From Gammaproteobacteria bacterium (GTDB lineage Bacteria; Pseudomonadota; Gammaproteobacteria; Pseudomonadales; Azotimanducaceae), in the NCBI GenBank assembly GCA_009840545.1, contig VXNM01000010.1:124001-188000 (forward strand): DNA of 64,000 nt. The letters run 5' to 3'. The position numbers and the translations under genes were made by a program. This document shows, in pieces, positions 17,710 to 51,696 of this stretch. Each line of letters begins with the position of its first letter. Position 1 is the stretch's first letter. The notes under the pieces are model-generated. The model was not told where the DNA came from. It did no database searches and saw only the letters and a list, made by a program, of their open reading frames with translations.

Positions 17710-17958
17710 GAGCCTAAAACGACTAGTTGTACCTAACAATTATGTACTCGTGGCTTGTGTACTGCGAACTAGCAGCTGCGCCTTTGCCTTGATGGCTCTA
17801 CTTTCCTCTAACTTGGTACGGTCCGAAGTGCCCGAACGCGATAACGCTAACCTAGTTGAGTTCACGGTACTTCGAGCCTCGACACTCTTTTTTGTGGGAG
17901 CATTTGTAATATTGAAGCGAACTCTTCGCGGTCAATTCGACTCCCATTGAGCAAACGC

Positions 17959-18933
17959 ATGGATCAAAATATTCAACGCCTTGACTTTAAGTCCGTAAGC
18001 AATCAGGAGGATGCTGCCTCGTTCAATCAAGAGGTATTCGAAGCAATAGATCTTGATGGGGCAGTCATCGTCGAGCACGCACTTGATGCGACCATCATGG
18101 ATGAGATTGTTGCAGAGATGCGACCGTATATCGATACAACACCTCACGGTCTGCATGGATTGGAAAACTCTCGTCGAGTCGGTGCGCTTGTTGCCCGTTC
18201 GCCAAGTTCGCACCATGCTATTGCACATCTAACAGTTCTTGATGTGTGCCAAAAAGTCTTGGGCGACCAAGCACGTCAAGGAAACGAGGTTCAGCTCATC
18301 CAATCGCCTAAGGGAAAAGGCCAATATCCTTGGAGACTTGGCCTCACTCAAGTCATTGATGTTGGCCCAGGTCAGCCTCGACAACCAGTCCATCGGGGTA
18401 ATGGTCTTTGGGTTCACAATCTCGCCGGCCATCGACTCGATCCTCAAATTGAGACGATGTGGGCACTCACGGACTTTACTGAAGAAAACGGAGCCACTCA
18501 CGTAGTCATTGGCAGCCACAAGTGGCAGGACGTGATCAGTCCTCAGGAGAGTCAAACGATGACCTGGTACCAAAAATCGGACTTTCAAACCGTTCAAGCG
18601 ACAATGCCCAAGGGCAGTGTTCTGATCTGGACAGGATGGACGGTGCACGGGGCGGGCGCAAACAAGAGTGAGTCTCGCCGAGTGGGAATGAATATCGACT
18701 ATAGCTTGTCGTTCCTGTCCCAGGAAGAAAACCAGTTTCTTTCCTGCCCTCCAAAACTGGCAAGGACGCTCTCGAAGAAAATGCAGCGTCTCATTGGCTA
18801 CTCTCAGCCTGCTGGAGCACTAAACTATTTTGCGGACTGTCTGCCTCCGAAATACTCATTGAACGAAGACTACGACGTCTTGGTTCCGGGTGCACATGGA
18901 ATGAAAAGTGCACAGGATCTGAGTCATGAGTGA
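17959..18933 (+). CDS. PhyH-family oxygenase with HxG iron site (halogenase-like change)
   Basis: This 324-residue protein matches the phytanoyl-CoA dioxygenase family: IETMWALTDFTEENGATHVVIGSHKW, GSVLIWTGWTVHGAG and the following SRRVGMN that should hold 2-oxoglutarate. The distal iron histidine is H230. The proximal motif, normally HxD or HxE, reads H145-R-G147 in QPVHRGNG, so the carboxylate ligand is missing. In iron/2-oxoglutarate halogenases such as SyrB2 (HxA) and WelO5 (HxG) this change opens a site for halide. An alternative is loss of activity or an acid from elsewhere. ATG 17959 is used; TTG 17947 is upstream in frame. The gene stands between dapD and fabV without evident partners. 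Confidence 0.82.
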   Translation: MDQNIQRLDFKSVSNQEDAASFNQEVFEAIDLDGAVIVEHALDATIMDEIVAEMRPYIDTTPHGLHGLENSRRVGALVARSPSSHHAIAHLTVLDVCQKVLGDQARQGNEVQLIQSPKGKGQYPWRLGLTQVIDVGPGQPRQPVHRGNGLWVHNLAGHRLDPQIETMWALTDFTEENGATHVVIGSHKWQDVISPQESQTMTWYQKSDFQTVQATMPKGSVLIWTGWTVHGAGANKSESRRVGMNIDYSLSFLSQEENQFLSCPPKLARTLSKKMQRLIGYSQPAGALNYFADCLPPKYSLNEDYDVLVPGAHGMKSAQDLSHE

Positions 18934-50326: not shown

Positions 50327-50658
50327 AGTAACCAAAAATGAACTGCCAACTTGCGGGCGATTATGCATGCAACTCGATAACAGCACTCCTAATTCCCTAT
50401 GTAGGGGGTCTTGGTTCCTGAAACCCGGTACACGACACGAGTAGAACTCCACCATGCAAACCGGATAATTCACGCTTCTTGGCAGTCCAGAATCTCTGAG
50501 CCTCAGCTATCGAAAATTGTTCCGTAATAAAATGTGAAGAACCATGGTCGGCTTTTCTCGGCGTGGCATTCTTTGTAGACGTTTGTCCTCGGACAAATTG
50601 AGAGTGCCCTCTTGGATTTTTGCAAGTCTGCTTGTCGAGACCAGCTCGGGGTCTTGAA
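50327..50658. other. Divergent intergenic region upstream of the second PhyH gene
   Basis: This stretch separates the LLM gene (minus) from the PhyH gene (plus). It contains one near-perfect inverted repeat (50582-50597). No convincing -35/-10 pair, tRNA or small gene was found. Confidence 0.5.
50582..50597. repeat. Inverted repeat, possible operator
   Basis: TTTGTCC and GGACAAA are perfect inverted 7-mers separated by TC. The repeat lies 61 bases upstream of the PhyH GTG start. No T-run follows, so a terminator is unlikely; a repressor or activator site is more plausible. There is no neighbouring regulator gene. Confidence 0.35.
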
Positions 50659-51696
50659 GTGAAAATTGGTGAATGGAAGTCAGCGGGGTCCGTAGCGCCG
50701 CTCTATCAAGAGCTACGGCAAATTGGTCTCGAAACCAACATTGCGGAGCTCGATGCGTTCGGATTTACAGTTGTACCGCCCGAAAAGGTCGGCCCACCAG
50801 ATTTCTGCATTGAAGTCCGAGAAGCACTAGAAAGAACCATGCTCCGTCGCTATGGCTCGGACGGACTGTCAATAGACCGTTGGAGAAACGTGAACGACAT
50901 ACAGCGCTTCATGCTATGGGAAGACCCCATTTTTGAGAGGCTGTCCTACAATCCCGCCGGTCTTGGACTCGCACAGTATCTGCTTGGCACGGATTGCGTG
51001 CTAAGCCTATGCGCAGCATGGGTAAAGGGCCCTGGGGAAGTTCGTACCGGAATTCATGGAGACTATCTCGATCCAGCCATCCAAGCACAACCAGAACGAA
51101 TCGTTAATTGCAACATGCACTTTATGCTGACCGACTACACCAAGGACGACGGATCGATTTCATTTGTTCCGGGTAGCCACAGGTGGCGTCGCCAAGTGAC
51201 AGCGGCAGAAGCTGAAAAGTGGAAGGACGAAGCGGTTGCCGTAGAAGCCGAGGCTGGTTCGATGGTGATATGGGGAAACCATACGTGGCACGGTTCATAT
51301 CCCAAGAAGACACCAGGACTGCGCATGACCTTGCAGTGCGAGTACATGCGTCGACGGCAACAGCCAGAAGAAGCATATCGAGAGACAGTGACTCAAGAAG
51401 CCCTTGATCGAAATCCCGTTCGATTTGCTGGACTAATGGATGTCTACAGCCTTTTTCCCTTCGGCAAGAGCGATTGGGACATTGATCGCCTGACCGACGC
51501 AGAGACCGGTGCGAAAGGAGGACAATCAATTAATGCGTACCGAAGCTTGTTTGATACAGAACCCGCAAACGGCCGAACCACTCTAAGGCCCAAGTACGAC
51601 TATATGCACCATGACGGAAAGATGACCTCTGAACGCAACAAAGAACGCATGGAAAAGAGATCTGAGCCTGAAAAGAAAAAGGTTGCGACCGGTTGA
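50659..51696 (+). CDS. PhyH-family dioxygenase (intact iron triad)
   Basis: The 345-residue protein is a phytanoyl-CoA dioxygenase family enzyme. The iron site is H133-G-D135 (GIHGDYLDP) and distal H211 (TWHGSY). The 2-oxoglutarate arginine is likely in LRMTLQCEY, near residue 225. It thus should be an active iron/2-oxoglutarate oxygenase, unlike the HxG paralogue at 17959. The GTG 50659 start is a compromise; TTG 50620 adds 13 residues. The C-terminus ends in a long, highly charged tail (ERNKERMEKRSEPEKKK). An SDR-type epimerase follows 62 bases downstream, possibly in the same transcript. Confidence 0.84.
   Translation: MKIGEWKSAGSVAPLYQELRQIGLETNIAELDAFGFTVVPPEKVGPPDFCIEVREALERTMLRRYGSDGLSIDRWRNVNDIQRFMLWEDPIFERLSYNPAGLGLAQYLLGTDCVLSLCAAWVKGPGEVRTGIHGDYLDPAIQAQPERIVNCNMHFMLTDYTKDDGSISFVPGSHRWRRQVTAAEAEKWKDEAVAVEAEAGSMVIWGNHTWHGSYPKKTPGLRMTLQCEYMRRRQQPEEAYRETVTQEALDRNPVRFAGLMDVYSLFPFGKSDWDIDRLTDAETGAKGGQSINAYRSLFDTEPANGRTTLRPKYDYMHHDGKMTSERNKERMEKRSEPEKKKVATG

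Follow-up and report, generated by a model that had tools for sequence, protein, structure and literature searches.

The solved proteins closest in sequence to the enzyme described here are the fungal PhyH dioxygenases PrhA, AsqJ, SwnH1/2, and SptF and the a-KG oxygenase DhiD; PrhA, AsqJ, and DhiD are also the closest to its predicted model. The fungal dioxygenases that were compared carry the iron-binding motif as HxD, and PrhA, AsqJ, and SptF have Asn at the place of residue 165 of the present enzyme. In AsqJ, this residue (Asn-157) was included in an active-site model (PMC5862883), and a QM/MM study counts it among three residues that hydrogen-bond to iron ligands or substrate, the study's wording leaving the individual pairings unspecified. 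The corresponding Asn150 of SptF is described as an active-site residue that contacts the substrate (PMC8748661).

SyrB2-type halogenases (TIGR01762) carry HxA or HxG, and in this they resemble the proteins described below, to which they have weak profile similarity (hhalign probability 97%). In germin-type cupins, whose barrel fold is related, one metal ligand is a Glu that comes soon after the HxH motif; the likeness to the present proteins would lie in such a Glu ligand, although cupins are not 2-oxoglutarate (2OG) oxygenases. Human AspH belongs to a different 2OG oxygenase family. It is active as a hydroxylase and has an HXG...H motif, in which two His are the only ligands and the motif carboxylate is absent (PMC10947486).

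A PhyH gene with HRG in place of the HxD motif

The window, that is, the whole stretch of 64,000 nucleotides that was analysed, encodes a protein (P0001, Table 1) that belongs to the PhyH family by its match to PF05721 (90.9 bits, E 1.8e-25; gathering cut-off 22). Its frame was read from the ATG at 17959, with the TTG at 17947 as a possible alternative start. In this frame, positions 18382-18402 read CAA CCA GTC CAT CGG GGT AAT and encode Q142-P-V-H145-R146-G147-N148, so that the canonical HxD/E...H triad is replaced by one with HRG. The initial annotation had reported H145-R-G147 and the distal H230, and both are present in this frame, as is R241. The role given to the place of R241, that of the arginine binding the 2OG 5-carboxylate, is taken from the EctD paper (PMC2871039). 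The fold marks ETMWALTDFTEENGAT, WTVHGAG, and SRRVGMN, which had been described as intact, are likewise present, but E165 in ETMWALTDFTEENGAT and W227 in WTVHGAG are clade-specific changes. By likeness to SptF, the segment H63-G-L-H66-G-L68 may form an N-terminal substrate lid.

The other PhyH gene of the window (ORF 50620-51696) retains H-G-D, as had been noted. Against NCBIfam it gives weak matches, well under the cut-off, with TIGR01762 (chlorin-enz, E 0.0095) and with TIGR04436 (E 0.0012).

Table 1. Features of the HRG-bearing PhyH gene, in window coordinates
Feature	Position	Strand	Basis or remark
PhyH-fold Fe(II)/2OG enzyme (P0001), 324 aa	17959..18930	+	ORF, PF05721, predicted model
Stop codon of P0001	18931-18933	+	
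H63-G-L-H66-G-L68	18145..18162	+	Invariant in 14 clade rows of alignment A3
H145-R146-G147, proximal metal-site motif, Gly replacing Asp/Glu	18391..18399	+	G/A in 35/35 clade genes
N148-G149	18400..18405	+	Invariant in aligned clade rows; Arg at 148 in 16 nearest HxD cousins
E165, next strand, clade-specific Glu, candidate stand-in carboxylate	18451..18453	+	Aligns with AsqJ Asn-157, SptF Asn150
W227, 3 residues before H230	18637..18639	+	Trp in 32/32 clade rows
H230, distal iron histidine	18646..18648	+	Sequence motif
R241, distal His +11, place of 2-oxoglutarate 5-carboxylate arginine	18679..18681	+	Role from PMC2871039

Extent of the clade and loss of the motif carboxylate

When 206 genomes of the bacterial family were searched by profile, 35 were found to contain the clade gene, one in each (members at E ≤4.5e-78, next match at 6.2e-64). 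The motif, read in all 35 genes, is HRG in 10 and contains Ala in 25 (24 HRA, 1 HKA). It had been asked at the outset whether homologues share the Gly: HxG occurs in the window's genus only (10 genes), and HxA in five other genera (25 genes). A separate search of the window's own genome and 57 relatives gave same-genus orthologues at 66-81% identity, with HRG in nine further genomes of the genus and HRA in one genome of another genus (G036). The initial annotation had held that Asp or Glu in close homologues would indicate a mutation or an error; neither occurs within the clade, and the nearest Asp-bearing proteins are about 40% identical to P0001.

The clade is set off by a single branch with support of 100/100 and a long stem of 2.33 changes per column, in a tree built without L101 (which has an in-frame stop), the partial L103, and six distant relatives (L002-L005, L030, L032). 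The HxD rows that remain in this tree include long branches (L118 with L029). Within the clade, the HRA and HRG subclades have support of 100/97 and 87/94, respectively. HxD is taken as ancestral because the remainder of the family carries it, and on this basis the carboxylate was lost on the clade's branch. Codon 147 varies synonymously across 32 genes (GGC, GGT, and GGA; GCC, GCG, GCA, and GCT), and dN/dS within the clade is 0.06-0.23 (Nei-Gojobori, own script; 95 of 496 pairs with dS<1.5). The loss of the motif carboxylate is neither decay nor error. The proposal of the initial annotation that the Gly reflects altered chemistry and not mere decay is well supported by a loss that is clade-wide, confined to a single branch, and maintained under purifying selection.

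In 369 genomes sampled from the class and 398 from the phylum, a search at E ≤1e-50 added no clade member; the sole extra match (L117) reads HRD. Beyond the phylum, coverage was confined to one genome-contig scan with patterns from P0001 alone and to five scans of viral contigs (IMG/VR). Two of these five scans yielded the same two PhyH relatives, L118 and L119, both with HRD and about 36% identical to P0001, and the other three yielded none. All plasmid matches to P0001 are below 60% identity. A DNA pattern search of 390 genomes of the order matched four same-genus genomes and G383, in which the matching stretch (L080) had no tblastn match to P0001; this pattern is blind to the WLH form of the motif and so missed G226. 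No account of the clade was found in a literature search of titles and abstract openings with general terms and few subscription journals, which is weak evidence of absence.

PhyH content splits within the window's genus (g1). Eight of its 18 genomes (G002, G005, G007, G008, and G010-G013) have zero matches to P0001 at E ≤0.001, and the remaining ten have 10-20 matches each. The two forms of the clade protein also differ in length, as 22 full-length HxA members (within L081-L104) have 371-387 aa, versus 318-325 for HxG. The additional C-terminal extension of about 60 residues follows the pattern K..AI..D.LE.AL..K.AI..L, which we take to resemble a UVR-type helical pair; Pfam reports PhyH alone on the HxA member L104.

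Clade-specific residues and position 165

For comparison, 87 non-clade PhyH proteins served as controls: 16 nearest cousins, 11 more distant proteins, and another 60 paralogues. These last were drawn from stronger matches, and not at random, in 21 genomes spanning the genus, family, and order. L020 and L112 are one protein and were counted once in the clade and cousin comparison. Position 147 is Asp or Glu in all 87 controls (27 + 60). The HxD cousins from the same bacterial family (HRDR..W) are 37-41% identical to P0001 (alignment A4) and share with the clade both His, the 2OG Arg, the EENQ and CPP motifs, and GY. However, they have D147, R148, N165, and S227, whereas the clade has G/A147, N148, E165, and W227. 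Positions that are fixed or nearly fixed on either side but differ between 32 clade rows and the 16 HxD cousins include H66, H85, W125, N148, E165, M167, W224, W227, A232, F252, N289, and C294. At position 227, Ser is found in 16 of 16 nearest cousins and Trp in 1 of the 60 further paralogues. No full-length clade member that was read lacks either His or R241, the latter being present in 32 of 32 such rows.

All 35 clade genes, but none of the 87 controls, have Glu at position 165, within ETMWALTDF. Asn occupies it in 59 of the controls, including all 16 nearest cousins; the 60 further paralogues divide into 37 with Asn, 15 with Ser, 4 with Ala, and four singles. Among the 35 clade genes and 87 controls, no protein combines an acid at 147 with Glu at 165, and none lacks both. 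The initial annotation had named a nearby Glu or Asp in the ligand position as evidence against its reading. E165, being invariant in the clade, exclusive to it, and aligned to AsqJ Asn-157, is by alignment a candidate for that place and in part weakens the halogenase reading. Two other residues were considered as replacement ligands and rejected: residue 154 is mostly Asp but Asn in P0001, L038, and L010, and H153 is Tyr in L089, L092, and L094.

Predicted structure

An AlphaFold model of P0001 has the double-stranded beta-helix (DSBH) fold of PhyH-type dioxygenases, with pLDDT 68 and pTM 0.76; residues 141-150 are of low confidence (mean pLDDT 65). Input alignments of 9 and 11 sequences gave pLDDT 59.5 and 68, respectively. 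The best Foldseek matches of this model in the PDB are PrhA (9.8e-19) and AsqJ (1.7e-18), with a TM-score (query) of 0.62-0.63.

Residues 163-169 form a strand in the model. In a search with 60 residues, I-E165-T-M-W-A aligned to AsqJ I156-N157-F-L-V-A, gapless in the strand, the numbering of the AsqJ chain having been checked on H134, D136, and Q131. The correspondence to SptF Asn150 is likewise by alignment, with a chain offset of 11 that was deduced from S114, F133, and a T-I-N run. These alignments suggest that position 165 lines the active site, from which E165 may reach the iron.

Gene neighbourhood

In the flanks read (simple ORF script), no neighbour of the clade gene recurs across genera. 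In the window and its nearest relative (L106), a trans-2-enoyl-CoA reductase gene and a further gene that is presumably hemE lie downstream of the clade gene. Of the seven longer same-genus loci L039-L045, four (L040, L041, L042, and L044) have a next gene from one similarity cluster, whose L041 member is Amidohydro_2. In these four loci, the HxG gene is followed by same-strand genes of two similarity clusters, whose members in L041 match Amidohydro_2 and SBP_bac_5 in Pfam. In genus g58, some loci share an upstream gene of the beta-lactamase family.

Possible relocation of the metal-site carboxylate

The preferred explanation, which we hold tentatively, is that Glu165, on strand III, has taken over the role of the strand-II carboxylate. 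Its more specific form, that the triad carboxylate moved from the strand-II HxD to Glu165 and thereby re-created in a PhyH barrel a Glu ligand of the cupin kind, is possible but somewhat doubtful. What replaced the strand-II Asp is a small residue, Gly in the window's genus and Ala in five others; the two His and the 2OG Arg remain. Glu165, whose side chain exceeds the cousins' Asn in length, would extend into the space freed at 147, supply the negative charge, and act there either as a direct iron ligand (a His-Glu-His triad) or as the holder of that site's water. The remaining cycle is assumed to be ordinary and would proceed through 2OG, O2, and ferryl to oxidation of the substrate.

Relocation would account for the limit to Gly or Ala at 147, where a side chain reaching in from the neighbouring strand needs room, as well as for the mutual exclusion between 147 and 165 and for the retained His and Arg. 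The Glu ligand of germin-type cupins makes a ligand from strand III possible in a barrel of this kind. Against relocation, E165 may only bind substrate, as SptF Asn150 contacts its substrate, or it may belong to a general rebuilding of the pocket, since the long stem also carries changes at many other positions (H66, H85, W125, N148, W224, W227, and more). Moreover, FIH is inactive with Glu in place of its Asp, according to the AspH paper (PMC10947486); exact placement of the carboxylate therefore matters, and a Glu cannot stand in for Asp just anywhere.

Alternative explanations

The clade proteins may instead be two-His oxygenases like human AspH, with water in the third site; they would hydroxylate or desaturate their substrate, and E165 would merely bind it. 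AspH itself provides the precedent, and the intact His pair and R241 of the clade, together with the substrate contact of SptF Asn150 at the place of 165 (PMC8748661), fit this reading. However, the clade differs from AspH in adding E165 and in also using Ala, and the exclusion between E165 and D147 would be left as a coincidence. In FIH, a change of Asp to Gly keeps some activity, but changes to Ala or Glu do not (PMC10947486), and 25 of 35 clade genes have Ala. For these 25 Ala members, this lowers the likelihood of a simple water-filled hydroxylase and keeps alive a role for halide. Overall, the two-His reading is rather improbable.

Halide is central to the next alternative, an independently evolved Fe/2OG halogenase in which a halide would occupy the vacated carboxylate site and a halo-ferryl would transfer the halogen. 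The initial annotation had called the change halogenase-like, and what stands of this is the HxG/A...H motif itself: only Gly or Ala occurs at 147, HXG/A is the published signature of the halogenase class (PMC12871659), and both His and R241 are retained. The presence of Ala beside Gly further argues against a simple water-filled hydroxylase, following the remark on FIH (PMC10947486). The halogenase-like character thus named lies in this one residue position. P0001 has no NCBIfam match at E ≤0.01 and hence is not a member of TIGR01762, whose NCBI cut-off of 226.3 bits it does not reach; the window genome has no TIGR01762 match at E ≤1e-40; and no halogenase by name is among the 51 distinct PDB sequences matched at E ≤10. 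TIGR01762 members over the cut-off occur in 4 of 293 genomes of the order, and all four have HxA or HxG. Unlike the clade, all four of these sampled members lack an acid at the place of 165, which is Thr in the ungapped register and Ile in the gapped hhalign alignment, one residue out. A negatively charged Glu beside a halide would also be unfavourable, the flanks read offer no neighbour gene common across genera, and the HXA/G motif yields false positives, according to the same preprint that describes the signature (PMC12871659). From these comparisons, the halogenase reading is unlikely; it is not established, and it appears less likely than was first thought.

Loss of oxygenase function altogether is a still weaker prospect. 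The clade protein would then act as an isomerase or lyase that depends on metal, or use its rebuilt pocket for binding, and 2OG chemistry would play no part. Solved relatives with the PhyH fold include a named isomerase (NvfE) and an epimerase (SnoN), and changes at conserved positions are extensive, but the retention of both His and R241 in the full-length members makes this reading quite improbable. A sequencing error or a decaying pseudogene is refuted for the clade, and its likelihood is negligible, because 35 genomes agree, codon 147 varies synonymously in 32 genes, and dN/dS is 0.06-0.23. The one gene that would suit it, L101 (G224), carries a single in-frame TGA in the loop before its HRA motif, which is either an error or the mark of a broken copy.

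Significance of the clade

HxG or HxA has been treated as a mark of iron halogenases in published mining (PMC12871659). In the clade described here, HxG/HxA is the invariable motif in six genera of a single bacterial family and is accompanied by a reciprocal acid at an active-site position. The clade may bind iron in a new way or catalyse a new reaction. If it is a halogenase, it would represent a lineage not captured by the SyrB2-type model. Should Glu165 prove to be a ligand, the clade would show a metal ligand moving in evolution, a natural experiment that would also offer a test case for enzyme redesign.
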